Shown: piece after piece, positions 58,671-63,860 of the stretch
Numbering within the stretch: the stretch's first letter is position 1
How the letters are laid out: the number at the start of each line of letters is the position of its first letter
From: an uncultured Candidatus Saccharibacteria bacterium
GTDB lineage: Bacteria > Patescibacteriota > Saccharimonadia > Saccharimonadales > Saccharimonadaceae
Reading direction: 5' to 3'
Assembly: GCA_947428935.1 (NCBI GenBank)
Contig: CANENS010000004.1
Span: forward strand, 1-64,000
Length of the DNA: 64,000 bases
Made by a program: the position numbers and the translations under genes
Notes under the pieces: model-generated
Databases searched by the model: none
Seen by the model: only the letters and a program-made list of their open reading frames with translations
What the model was told of the DNA's origin: nothing

Positions 58671-58940
58671 AAGGTTTTTAGATTGACATAATCGAATATC
58701 GGAAGACGCAAGTTCAGTTCAAATTTTCTCTGGTAGGGCACAGTCCGGCAGGCTTTAACAAAGTTTCTAGAGGAAAACAACTAAATGTTAAGTCGATCTA
58801 GTCAAAGTTCTGCACTTCGTTTTTGTCAAGTTCGCGCCCGATTAGGGCCTCGCATTCGCTAGTAGCGAGTATAATTGTCATTCTGTGGTCTATTGTGTAA
58901 ATACATAAGATAGAGCGCAAATAATATTGTTTGAATGTGG
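58671..58940. other. Intergenic stretch before the leader RNA
   Basis: About 270 bases. A minus-strand frame of 81 codons (58798-59043) overlaps the plus-strand leader and shows no family signature. Nothing else supported. Confidence 0.35.
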
Positions 58941-59100
58941 TATAATAAGGGAGTCTATACTTAATATCATTGAATAAATCATCTCGGTGCATAATCGCTT
59001 TTTCTAGCGAACAGTTGCCGTATTTAAGCGGCACCGCTAGCAAGACGGCAATAGCCGAGTTGTGATATAGGTATAGACACCCTCGCGGTGTCGCTTTTAT
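58941..59100 (+). promoter_or_regulatory. Riboswitch-like leader with pseudoknot and terminator
   Basis: Starts at an extended -10 TGTGG-TATAAT (58941-58946). GTCTATAC (58953-58960) pairs with GTATAGAC (59071-59078) as a closing stem; inside, CTCGG/CCGAG (58983-58987, 59055-59059), and CTAGCG/CGCTAG (59004-59009, 59035-59040) interleaved with TTGCCGT/ACGGCAA (59015-59021, 59045-59051), that is, a pseudoknot. The terminator GACACC/GGTGTC (59076-59092, then CGCTTTTA) shares GAC with the closing stem, so the two compete. Ligand unknown. Confidence 0.65.
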
Positions 59101-59135
59101 TTGGCATCGTTCTTAATAATTAAGGAGATGCCAAA

Positions 59136-59711
59136 ATGGAAATAGATTTTATCTACATTCTTTCCCAAATCTTTACAATCTTAATGTATGCCCTGATGGC
59201 TTGGACTTACTTTCTAAAAGATAAGCGCAAAATCGTCATCGTCAGCGCTTTCTCGCTAGTCGCTAATATAATTGCTTATGTTCTGCTTGGGGCTTGGACG
59301 GGGCTAGCAATGTGCGTAGTGGCGATGCTTCGCAATTTGTATATTCTTTGGGAAGAAAAGAAGAATGGCAAACGCGAAACCAACGAGAAGTGCGATTATA
59401 TTTTTCTCGCTATCGTCTATCTCGGTATCATTCTTGCCACCATTCCCACTTACGAAGGATTCCTAAGCCTGCTCTCGGTTTTCGCAACATCCATCTATAC
59501 TTATTCCATTTGGCAGAAAAGCACGAAGGTTTATAAGTTCTGCGGCATTCCAGTCGGGATTTCATGGATCGCTTATAATGCCTATGTGAAATCTATCTTC
59601 GGGGTAATCCTAGAAGCAATTTTACTAATCGCATCTGTTATCGGCTACGCGGCCGAAGTAAAACCTGCCAGAGGTGGTAAAATACAAAGTAAGAAACAGG
59701 AGAAAGAATGA
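59136..59711 (+). CDS. YgjV-family inner membrane protein
   Basis: 191 residues with six or so membrane helices; matches the YgjV pattern in WTYFLKDKRKIVIVSAFSLVANIIAYVLLGAWTG and MLRNLYILW (shown in parts). Function of the family is not established. First gene of an operon of four or five genes under the riboswitch-like leader. TAAGGAG precedes the ATG. A basic cytoplasmic tail ends the protein. Confidence 0.8.
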   Translation: MEIDFIYILSQIFTILMYALMAWTYFLKDKRKIVIVSAFSLVANIIAYVLLGAWTGLAMCVVAMLRNLYILWEEKKNGKRETNEKCDYIFLAIVYLGIILATIPTYEGFLSLLSVFATSIYTYSIWQKSTKVYKFCGIPVGISWIAYNAYVKSIFGVILEAILLIASVIGYAAEVKPARGGKIQSKKQEKE

Positions 59712-60388
59712 AGCTATTTTTAGCCAGTCAAGATTTGGGCAACTTCGCCACCATCTTGCAAGAAATGGTCGGCAAGAAGAAGCGCGCGCTCGTTATCAGC
59801 AATGCCAGAGATTACTATAATGATGAAACAAGAATTGCCAGGAGTGTGGAGAAAACTCTCGTTAATCTCGGTGAAATTGGAATTGAAGCCGAAAGATTAG
59901 ACCTCAGGCCATTCTTTGGTAAACAAGCGGAACTTGCGCGATACATTGAAGAAAAACAAGCAGGACTAATCTTTTCTGTCGGTGGTAATGTAATCTGTCT
60001 TGCCACGGCTTTGCACGAAAGTGGCATGGACGAGGTTATTCGGCAAGGTGTAGCCGAAGACAGATTCGTCTATGGCGGTTATAGCGCCGGTTCGCTGGTA
60101 GCATCGCATAATTTATCGCTGTATCTGATTGATGCGAAGTCGGGGGAAGAACTACCGCCGTGCTTTAACCCTGATGTGACAAAGGAAATTTACGGAGTTG
60201 AGTCTTACAGACAGGGTCTGGGCTTGATTCCAGAATATGTCGTACCACATATGGATAGAAGTGACTGTATTGATGCTATGCGCAAGGGGCTAAATAAAAT
60301 CGCGCAGGCTAGTGCCGAAGCAATTTGCCTAGACGATGCTGATGTGTTTGTTGTGAATGACGAAAATAAGGAAATCTTGAAAGGCTAG
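59708..60388 (+). CDS. Peptidase S51 (PepE/cyanophycinase-like) family protein
   Basis: 226 residues. Start overlaps the YgjV stop (ATGA). Nucleophile elbow GGYSAGS with Ser near 123, preceded by FSVGGNVICL, and a later VPHMDRSD; these fit the S51 fold. PepE cleaves Asp-X dipeptides, but the substrate here is unproven. Same operon as YgjV. Confidence 0.85.
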   Translation: MKLFLASQDLGNFATILQEMVGKKKRALVISNARDYYNDETRIARSVEKTLVNLGEIGIEAERLDLRPFFGKQAELARYIEEKQAGLIFSVGGNVICLATALHESGMDEVIRQGVAEDRFVYGGYSAGSLVASHNLSLYLIDAKSGEELPPCFNPDVTKEIYGVESYRQGLGLIPEYVVPHMDRSDCIDAMRKGLNKIAQASAEAICLDDADVFVVNDENKEILKG

Positions 60389-60390
60389 AC

Positions 60391-60936
60391 ATGAAACTAA
60401 TCGCTACCCGACATGCCGAAACGAACTACAATATTAAAGATTTGGTAAATTATGATCCATCAGTTGATGTGTATCTGACCGAAAAAGGTATAAAACAAGC
60501 AGCCGAACTTGCCGAACAATTGAAAGATTCTAAGTTTGATAGGATCTACATTTCTAGGCTGAAACGCACAAAGCAGACCGCCGATGCTATCAATCGCTAT
60601 CATGGACAAGAGTTAGTGGTAAATGAACTGCTAGACGATACTCGGAATGGATTTGAAGGTCGTCCGTATAGCGAAGCCAAAGGTTGGCGCGATACACAGC
60701 CTAATCCAGTGACTGCGCGTTATCAGGGCAAATATGAATCCGTCAGCGACATGACAGACCGCGTGCGCAAGTTCTTGGACTATCTGAATCAGCATCACGG
60801 AAATGACGAAACGATTTTAATTGTCACTAGCAGCCACATTATCAAGCAGTTGCGTATGCTGAACGGCGAAATCACGATGCAGGAGTTGCTCAATGCACCA
60901 GCCAAACATGCCACTTACTATGAATTTGATATTTAA
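60391..60936 (+). CDS. Histidine phosphatase (phosphoglycerate-mutase-like) family protein
   Basis: 181 residues. Catalytic RHAETNYN at residues 7-14 (family RHGET), ISRLKRTKQTA, a Glu in the FEGRPYSEA region, and second His in VTSSHIIKQL. Acts on small phosphorylated metabolites; substrate unknown. Two bases after the previous stop. Confidence 0.9.
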   Translation: MKLIATRHAETNYNIKDLVNYDPSVDVYLTEKGIKQAAELAEQLKDSKFDRIYISRLKRTKQTADAINRYHGQELVVNELLDDTRNGFEGRPYSEAKGWRDTQPNPVTARYQGKYESVSDMTDRVRKFLDYLNQHHGNDETILIVTSSHIIKQLRMLNGEITMQELLNAPAKHATYYEFDI

Positions 60937-60948
60937 ACAGGAGTAAAA

Positions 60949-61464
60949 ATGATTTATCTTAAACTTGCTAATTTGGAAGATGCTAAAGCCGAATACGAAG
61001 CCTTGCAAAAAATCCCAGCCGCCGAAAATGGTTTGAATAATGAATATGCCGATATGTCTGAAACTGAGTTTGCGGAGCAGGCTTTGCCAAAAATGATTGC
61101 TAATTCCAGGGGAGAAGACCTGCCGGAAGGCTATGTGCCGTTTTCGGTTTATTTCTTGTGGGATGACGATAAAATTGTCGGCCTATTCCATTTTCGGCAC
61201 CATCTTTGCGATAGTCTGAAAAAGCATGGTGGACATATTGGCTATGCTACTATCAAAGAATATCGCGGTAAAGGCTATGCTAGTAAAGGCCTAAAGTTAT
61301 TGCTCGATGAAGTGCGCGATAAAATCCCCGAAGATGAGTTTTGGCTGGATGCGCGTAAAGATAATATCGCTTCACAAAAGGTAATGTTAAGTAATGGCGC
61401 ATATAAGGTGGATGAATACGAAATGGATGGCATCCAGTATGTCAGAATGAGAATTAAAAAGTAG
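60949..61464 (+). CDS. GNAT-family N-acetyltransferase
   Basis: 171 residues. Acetyl-CoA loop IKEYRGKGYASKGLKLLL matches R/Q-x-x-G-x-G/A, followed by LDARKDNIASQKVMLSNGAYKV. Substrate unknown. AGGAG precedes the ATG; twelve bases after the phosphatase gene and likely in the same operon. Confidence 0.92.
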   Translation: MIYLKLANLEDAKAEYEALQKIPAAENGLNNEYADMSETEFAEQALPKMIANSRGEDLPEGYVPFSVYFLWDDDKIVGLFHFRHHLCDSLKKHGGHIGYATIKEYRGKGYASKGLKLLLDEVRDKIPEDEFWLDARKDNIASQKVMLSNGAYKVDEYEMDGIQYVRMRIKK

Positions 61465-61737: not shown

Positions 61738-62119
61738 ATGGCTATAATTATCAAACCTATTCTCTGGGGAGAAACTTGGGATTGGCGGAATGACGATTTT
61801 GTCAAAGGCGAAAGTGTGAAATGCGATGTTTATGCTTATCGTGGCGAAAACCGCACTTTCGTAAGGGGAGAAATCGCACCGCACGAAGACCACGGCTGGA
61901 CGAATGCCGCTAGTGATTATTACTATCTGATTATAAGTGGCTCTTGCGAAGTTTATGTCGGCAAAGATAGCAGTAAGATTAGTGATTAATCTGATAGAAC
62001 TTGCCGAAACGACCGAGTTCAAAGCCGGTGATAGTTTTGTCATCAAGGCCGACACAAACTGCAACTACCGCGCTGGCGCAGACGGTTTGAAATTCGTCTT
62101 ATTTATGAATAATCTCTAG
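61738..62119 (+). pseudogene. Cupin-like protein, frameshifted
   Basis: AAAGGAGG lies before the ATG at 61738. The first frame (MAIIIKPILWGETWDW..., YYLIISGSCEVYVGKDS) stops at 61989 just after KISD; the next frame continues with NLIELAETTEFKAGDSFVIKADTNCNYRAGADG and ends at 62119. Removing one T near 61987 would join them into an intact protein of about 125 residues of single-domain cupin type. It is either a recent frameshift or a sequencing error. Confidence 0.7.
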
Positions 62120-62146: not shown

Positions 62147-62180
62147 AAAACGGTGCAGCCCCACAAACTGCGCCGTTTTT
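62147..62180. terminator. Bidirectional terminator
   Basis: AAAACGGTGCAG/CTGCGCCGTTTTT with a loop of about nine bases, between the plus-strand operon and the minus-strand terminase remnant. Confidence 0.88.
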
Positions 62181-62517
62181 AAAATCTCACCGCCCCATAT
62201 TCCACCTGCTTCCGTTCCATATCTCTGACCGCATAAACCAGCGCATCTATACAGTGGACGTTGCTATCTTCCGGTCCGTCTAGGGTTTTGCCAGTGGATT
62301 TCTGCATGCGCCACAGATAGGTTAAGTATTCTTGTTCTAGGTCTTGTATCATTTCCGGCTTTACGTTATCGCAGACAAACAAGCCTCCATGCTTCACATT
62401 GATTTTGACGGTTTCCGCCACGATTTCTTTGCTAGTAAGATGAGTTTGATACAAACAAGGTTTAAGGTAGATTGACTTCGTCTGTGCGTCGTTCTCTACT
62501 ACTTGCCATTGGTCCAT
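62179..62517 (-). pseudogene. Phage terminase large subunit, C-terminal remnant
   Basis: 112 residues. The end of a TerL nuclease domain is recognisable from VKHGGLFVCDN, YLTYLWRMQKSTGKTLDGPEDSNVHCIDALVYAVRD; the HxxDAxxYA motif is typical. A TAA lies in frame three codons before the Met. Upstream (about 62518-62600, minus strand) another frame carries FWDYMSAIVLSSEWYFLKHW, which may be more of the same gene. The ATPase part is missing, so this is a prophage remnant. Confidence 0.7.
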
Positions 62518-63332: not shown

Positions 63333-63860
63333 ATGGCTCGGAAAAGTATGTATCGTCAAGAACTGGCTGACAAGATTGTGGAACTGGTCAGTCAAGGTTA
63401 TTGCCTAAAGGATGTGGCTTATTTTTGTGGCTTGTCTGACCGAACGATCTTGCGGTGGCGAGAAACGCACCTAGACTTTAACGAGGCTTTTGTGAAGGCT
63501 ACTCAACGCAGTGTGGAGAATATTGAGGCGATCAGACGGCTTGGACATCGCACTTATAAGAGAAAAACGTATATTTCCCCGAACTACGGACAGAAGCCCC
63601 TCATATCGCCCGTAAATCGCTCACAGGGGCAATTATCTCGACCAAAGAACCCTACTTGGCTGGGCTTACCGATTCACCCACGACCGATGTCGCCTTACAC
63701 CAAACGTATTCCGCACTATCTCAATCCAAACACTATGCGTGTGGAATGGGTGGAACGTTGGCGAGGTGGGGAGTTCGTCTTGGGGAGTTGTCGGATGGAG
63801 GTTTGGGAGGCAAAACATGAACCTATCATTGACGATAGGTTCATAGGGATAGTAGTTTAA
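63333..63860 (+). CDS. Terminase small-subunit-like HTH protein, aberrant C-terminus
   Basis: 175 residues. The first 70 are a helix-turn-helix unit (ELADKIVELVSQGYCLKDVAYFCGLSDRTILRWRE, given here in part) with EAFVKATQRS, typical of phage terminase small subunits. From about residue 75 the composition changes to Pro/Arg/Tyr-rich, and the DNA near the end (63817-63844) is a perfect 11-bp hairpin ATGAACCTATC/GATAGGTTCAT, so the second half is probably a frameshifted or non-native extension. Confidence 0.5.
   Translation: MARKSMYRQELADKIVELVSQGYCLKDVAYFCGLSDRTILRWRETHLDFNEAFVKATQRSVENIEAIRRLGHRTYKRKTYISPNYGQKPLISPVNRSQGQLSRPKNPTWLGLPIHPRPMSPYTKRIPHYLNPNTMRVEWVERWRGGEFVLGSCRMEVWEAKHEPIIDDRFIGIVV

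Follow-up and report, generated by a model that had tools for sequence, protein, structure and literature searches.

What is the structured leader that precedes a YgjV-like membrane protein gene in an uncultured Saccharibacterium, and which of its pairings could switch transcription? The leader lies in a stretch of 64,000 nucleotides (the window). An earlier note, made from the letters of the window, described a leader before a YgjV/S51 peptidase operon with a closing stem, an internal pseudoknot and a terminator that overlaps the closing stem. It read these parts as a transcription switch of no known riboswitch class.

The leader and its operon

The features of the leader and of the genes behind it are listed in Table 1. 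Transcription is expected to start near position 58953, approximately 7 nt after the -10 box, and the intrinsic terminator lies between this promoter and the first gene, as in an attenuator, 37 nt upstream of the YgjV start codon. The window leader folds better than all 200 of 200 dinucleotide shuffles (z -3.9). The closing stem (P1) is present where the earlier note placed it. The same is true of the pseudoknot, in which the CTAGCG/CGCTAG pairing (A:L) is interleaved with the TTGCCGT/ACGGCAA pairing (P3). The terminator and the closing stem are both present and share nucleotides, and the overlap is limited to 3 nt (GAC).

The earlier note overlooked the many paralogous copies of the leader and two of its pairings. 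Strand L of the apical loop can form 12 bp with the 3' arm of the terminator and its first Us (T3). In addition, a hairpin covers part of the Shine-Dalgarno sequence AAGGAG (59122-59127). For this hairpin, none of 100 shuffles is as good in the window copy, and p<=0.05 is reached in 19 of 82 copies, where approximately 4 are expected.

Table 1. Positions of leader elements and downstream genes in the window, with the basis for each.
Feature	Positions	Strand	Basis
Extended -10 promoter element, TGG TATAAT	58938..58946	+	Sequence
P1 (closing stem) 5' strand, GTCTATAC (58953-58960) plus TTA	58953..58963	+	P1 covariation
P2 5' strand, CTCGG	58983..58987	+	Folding of window copy
Strand A, CTAGCG, partner of L 3' half (pseudoknot)	59004..59009	+	Native vs permuted pairing; 29-copy alignment
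P3 5' strand, TTGCCGT	59015..59021	+	P3 beyond all 300 shuffles
Strand L, AAGCGGCACCGC, P3 apical loop, complementary to T3 (candidate antiterminator)	59026..59037	+	12 bp; covariation in 42 copies
L 3' half, CGCTAG, partner of strand A	59035..59040	+	Sequence, covariation
P3 3' strand, ACGGCAA	59045..59051	+	Sequence, covariation
P2 3' strand, CCGAG	59055..59059	+	Folding of window copy; no covariation support
P1 3' strand, TAG plus GTATAGAC (59071-59078)	59068..59078	+	Sequence, covariation
T5, terminator 5' arm, GACACC	59076..59081	+	GAC (59076-59078) common to T5 and P1
T3 and first Us, GCGGTGTCGCTT: terminator 3' arm (GGTGTC, 59087-59092), partner of L	59085..59096	+	Complementarity, covariation
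GC plus TTTT tract of terminator	59093..59098	+	Sequence
Hairpin TTTGGCATC (59100-59108) / GATGCCAAA (59127-59135), ends at start codon	59100..59135	+	Shuffle test
First gene: YgjV-like membrane protein	59136..59711	+	PF10688, E 2e-26
Second gene: peptidase family S51	59708..60388	+	PF03575, E 3.2e-15
Third gene: histidine phosphatase	60391..60936	+	PF00300, E 2e-31
Fourth gene: GNAT acetyltransferase	60949..61464	+	PF13302, E 3.5e-10

A gene read in the earlier note as a cupin (61738-62119, + strand) is split over the overlapping frames 61738-61989 and 61937-62119, and the first piece has no Pfam match; this looks like a frameshift or an assembly error. Farther downstream, PHROGs matches identify fragments of a phage terminase large subunit (62179-62517, - strand, E 8.7e-8) and small subunit (63333-63860, + strand, E 1.9e-8), which may mark a prophage remnant or a prophage edge near the operon.

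Copies of the leader and the genes behind them

In a DNA search of 174 genomes of the genus, one other genome (locus L002) contains a near-identical leader before the same gene. The same search gives many weak matches to the terminator region, and many of these prove to be complete paralogous leaders when the surrounding DNA is read. The paralogues share a layout: the same promoter position, a GTCTnnnn start, a long hairpin whose conserved apical loop lies around GCGGCAYCGC, then nnnnAGACACC...GGTGTCG-TTTT. The leader does precede the YgjV/S51 operon, as the earlier note had it, and is not specific to that operon.

Because MAFFT did not align the variable 5' side correctly when given whole elements, covariance models were built on the half from L to the terminator, the first on P3 plus terminator and the second on L:T3. 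The first model has matches in 35 of the 174 genus genomes, with up to 12 per genome; the weaker ones lie at E near 0.01 and were inspected in part. The second model, run on 295 family genomes, has matches in 86 of them, from 28 of 61 genera; on 393 class genomes it likewise has matches in 86, from 31 of 153 genera. Within the class, the matches extend to several further families of the order and to two that lie outside the order, and those in a phylum sample of 287 genomes are confined to the window's own family. Some relatives carry at least 14 copies per genome by the second model. Because the L:T3 pairing is nearly palindromic, a few of the matches in these counts are the same site picked up again on the opposite strand. 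The window's own genome contains about six copies, four strong and two weak (C7:31545, counted from the model match alone, and C18:11070).

A pattern scan of named genomes gives 13 loci, all in MAGs named Saccharibacteria except one. The exception (L049:6083-6168), a clear copy, stands on a contig that belongs to a MAG labelled Eubacterium sp.; it may be a mis-binned Saccharibacterial contig or a transfer between phyla. The window leader is thus one of many copies of an RNA family that, in these searches, is confined to Saccharibacteria except for this doubtful MAG. In genome G197, two leaders lie in tandem approximately 480 nt apart (L241:1645-1725 and 2124-2204, - strand) and are nearly identical from L to the terminator. 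Many leaders are close to a contig end, at a distance of a few hundred bases at most (G126, G135, G140, G164, G167 and G169), and the genes behind them may belong to repeated families that break assemblies.

A Shine-Dalgarno sequence and an open reading frame follow within 110 nt in 88 copies, at a median of 46 nt after the terminator. Among the 90 first genes scanned, Fib_succ_major domains occur in 13, Listeria-Bacteroides repeats in 7, DNA methylases in 3, and DUF4352 and OmpA-like domains in 2 each. Single cases include a Tsp45I-type restriction enzyme, an OLD-like nuclease, a T4SS pilin, a TM2 protein and the window's YgjV. A hydrophobic N-terminal segment (membrane or signal) is present in 64% of first genes and in 79% of the genus set. 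The comparison values are 23% for 53 ORFs of the window (Fisher p = 2e-6) and 34% for the 87 ORFs of loci L040-L052. These figures are approximate; the first gene was picked by a longest-ORF rule, and some picks (e.g., L195, L200 and L207) are the second gene. By their domains, the predicted targets are mostly surface genes with some secretion and DNA-defence genes, and share no common pathway. This diversity suggests a general physiological signal rather than pathway feedback.

Defence-type genes, including DNA methylases and a Tsp45I-like restriction enzyme, lie behind the copies in L205, L208, L233, L229 and L207. In L205 a methylase is followed by a helicase-like ORF, and in L207 a small ORF precedes the OLD-like nuclease. 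A link between the leader family and DNA defence is possible. In L008, L034, L098, L102, L141 and L146, a segment complementary to the copy's own terminator lies approximately 55-100 nt after it (for example GCGACATCCGAGGTGGC in L034), and in some copies this segment holds a Shine-Dalgarno-like AGGTGG. The segment is common by eye and is significant by shuffling in only 6 of 65 genus copies; it was rejected as a part of the model.

Pairings conserved among the copies

In an alignment of 29 copies from many genera and several families, the window included, P1, P3 and A:L are each beyond all 300 shuffles. P1 is 97.8% paired (77.9% in shuffles) with 44 double-sided changes (12.5 in shuffles). P3 is 66.3% paired (56.8% in shuffles) and A:L is 77.8% paired (73.9% in shuffles). 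The closing stem and both halves of the interleaved pseudoknot thus covary. In the same alignment the P2 helix has no support, and for T5:T3 the double-sided changes do not exceed those in shuffles. A -10-like hexamer stands approximately 5-8 nt upstream of P1 in nearly all relatives. The sequence and length of the hairpin are highly variable between copies.

In other genera and families, strand A is located directly 5' of P3 and pairs with the 3' half of L. Examples of A/L partners are TTTATGCGG/CCGCATAAA, TGCGTGAT/ATCACGCA and TTTCGCACGAT/ATCGTGTGAAA. In a separate test on 54 cross-genus copies, native A:L partners are stronger than permuted ones, with none of 2000 permutations as good. Taken over the whole genus of the window, A:L is weak, with 38 of 1000 permutations as good, so that A cannot be the general masking strand there; the window copy retains six pairs. 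Residues that pairing leaves unexplained are common across genera, namely AUAAGCA after L and GUGAAUGG before P1'. AAUGG and A are missing from one subtype of the window's genus, and AUAAGCA and GUGAAUGG are also lost in one subtype there. The loop residues beside L are conserved even in copies without A.

Of the 31 leaders that were first well delimited, nearly all have an L that can pair over 10-16 bp with the 3' arm and first Us of the same leader's terminator; L032 lacks this complementarity and L029 has one mismatch. In a set of 74 copies, whose T3 strands comprise 29 distinct sequences, compensating changes maintain the fit. In a 42-copy alignment of divergent copies, the L:T3 helix is 95.8% paired (90.2 +/- 0.5% with shuffled partners) and has 30 double-sided changes (7.5 +/- 2.5 in shuffles). 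When the partner is slid by 1-3 columns, pairing falls to 31-64%. Similarity in L and T3 was one of the means by which the copies were found, and the 74- and 42-copy sets were filtered for an L:T3 match. This selection inflates the percentage paired and affects the double-sided changes less. L:T3 is a conserved alternative pairing that excludes the terminator, and its covariation is the strongest evidence here for a transcription switch in which T3 would form either a terminator with T5 or an antiterminator with L.

The covariation of P1, P3, A:L and L:T3 contradicts the reading of the leader as a chance hairpin beside an ordinary terminator with no switch. A single leader alone could be due to chance, whereas here many copies are located directly at gene starts, and this explanation is highly improbable.

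Neither the leader region nor 20 relatives match any Rfam 15 family at the gathering cut-off, and only chance-level matches appear at E up to 10 or 5. The single match above cut-off in the whole window is a tRNA elsewhere. The RNA family is absent from Rfam 15, and no published description of such an RNA was found in a search of mostly open-access literature, with bioRxiv preprints outside it. Three exact-pattern scans of viral contigs for a phage-borne element, using narrow patterns, were empty. The earlier note had proposed comparing the leader with Rfam and with other Saccharibacterial leaders, and had named unconserved pairing or a clear match to a known class as evidence against it. Neither was found: the leader matches no known class, and the pairing is conserved in homologous leaders.

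A candidate attenuator and what may set it

The leader is probably a copy of a Saccharibacterial family of cis-acting transcription attenuators. The existence and conservation of P1, P3, A:L and L:T3, like the terminator, the promoter position and the placement before genes, are well supported by sequence comparison. We infer an alternation of A:L with L:T3 in the cell, with L:T3 as the ON state and an effector that decides between them. Transcription would begin at the P1 5' strand, and the RNA would fold into a P1-P2-P3 hairpin whose apical loop presents L. L would then choose between two mutually exclusive partners, A just upstream of P3 or T3 with the first Us. With L:T3 paired, the terminator would be blocked and RNA polymerase would read into the gene. 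If A held L, or if something bound to the loop masked it, T3 would pair with T5, which borrows GAC from P1, and transcription would stop before the gene. The hairpin over the ribosome binding site may add a layer of translational control in the window and in a minority of copies.

For the window, the predicted energy of the L:T3 duplex is approximately -23 kcal/mol, that of the terminator -9 and that of A:L -8. A free L is expected to pair with T3, and the gene would be read. Since the predicted L:T3 duplex is by itself much stronger than the terminator, our guess is that the effector would keep L off T3 and cause termination. Several points speak against the attenuator model. When the two folds of the window leader are forced, the nested L:T3 fold (-43.1) is 5 kcal/mol worse than the terminator fold (-48.0). 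Some copies have an upper hairpin of tens of base pairs, and L would reach T3 there only if the hairpin bends or opens. The weakness of A:L in the window's genus, the T5:T3 result on the 29-copy alignment and the way in which the copies were found also count against it. Because P1 shares only GAC with the terminator, competition with P1 would be a minor part of the switch. The earlier note is partly supported. Its observation is confirmed, and its transcription switch is largely upheld and extended: the leader is conserved and structured, its folds exclude one another, and it has an intrinsic terminator. The main competition is not the overlap of terminator and closing stem but lies between A and T3 for L. 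Binding of a metabolite, as the riboswitch-like reading would imply, is hypothetical.

A metabolite riboswitch of a new class, in which a small molecule would bind the P1/P2/P3 core and the loop and set A:L against L:T3, is a more specific version of the attenuator explanation and is a plausible reading that falls somewhat short of an even chance. A pseudoknotted core ahead of a terminator, as in this leader, is a common riboswitch layout (PMC11625349, PMC7337938). The conserved residues AUAAGCA after L and GUGA before P1' argue for something that binds. However, the surface, secretion and defence targets do not belong to a common pathway, and the subtype without AAUGG and A also speaks against a ligand-binding core. 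These diverse targets resemble the regulon of one regulator, either a protein (attenuator or antiterminator) or another RNA (sRNA), that would set the switch by binding the apical loop or P1. The conservation of loop residues in copies that have lost A fits such a regulator, which we consider somewhat unlikely. Against the RNA form, all four exact T3 copies in the window's genome are leaders of the family, and exact matches give no obvious sRNA partner.

The small energy difference between the two forced folds, together with the variability of the hairpin, is consistent with a bistable attenuator that has no effector and gives a fixed or noisy read-through fraction, for example heterogeneous expression of surface proteins. 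The conservation of A:L and the loop residues across families goes beyond the needs of a constitutive attenuator, and we regard this explanation as rather improbable. The remaining reading is a T-box riboswitch, or a derivative, that reads tRNA. L, GGCACCGC, resembles the T-box motif GGNACCGCG, and T-boxes likewise involve competition with a terminator. The would-be U of UGGN varies, however: column 14 of A3, the 42-copy alignment, is C in 32 paired cells and also G and U, and it covaries with T3. There is also no RF00230 match, and the targets are not aminoacyl-tRNA synthetases or amino-acid genes. The T-box reading is thus contradicted and very improbable.

Among known systems, the ZTP/pfl, preQ1-I and fluoride riboswitches are also 5' leaders with a hairpin loop in a pseudoknot and a competing terminator. 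In contrast to these, the present leader has no Rfam match, is found only in Saccharibacteria in the model-searched genome sets, and has a single loop strand that pairs with either an upstream strand or the terminator 3' arm itself. T-box leaders (RF00230) share a terminator, an antiterminator and a GGNACCGC-like strand. Unlike them, this family lacks a fixed UGGN and tRNA or amino-acid genes, and its L is located in the apical loop, complementary to the terminator 3' arm. In protein-controlled attenuators, such as LicT/SacY antiterminator sites and TRAP and PyrR leaders, one hairpin likewise excludes a terminator, and several targets per genome are possible; their architecture, the loop-to-terminator pairing and the lineage differ.

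If the attenuator reading is correct, the family would be a candidate RNA class built around a single loop strand with two possible partners, one located upstream and the other in the terminator. It could be a new riboswitch or single-signal switch class, a proposal we make tentatively, in which one common signal would set much of the surface proteome, a T4SS pilin and DNA-defence genes, through 14 or more copies per genome in some lineages. Saccharibacteria are tiny, host-dependent bacteria that live attached to other bacteria. According to a review of the Patescibacteria, the mechanisms by which host-attached and free cells differentiate are completely unknown, and cultivated Saccharibacteria have recently become accessible to genetic manipulation (PMC11665869). 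An RNA switch that is conserved, present in many copies and placed before surface, secretion and defence genes would offer a concrete regulatory system in cultivated Saccharibacteria, if they carry the leader.
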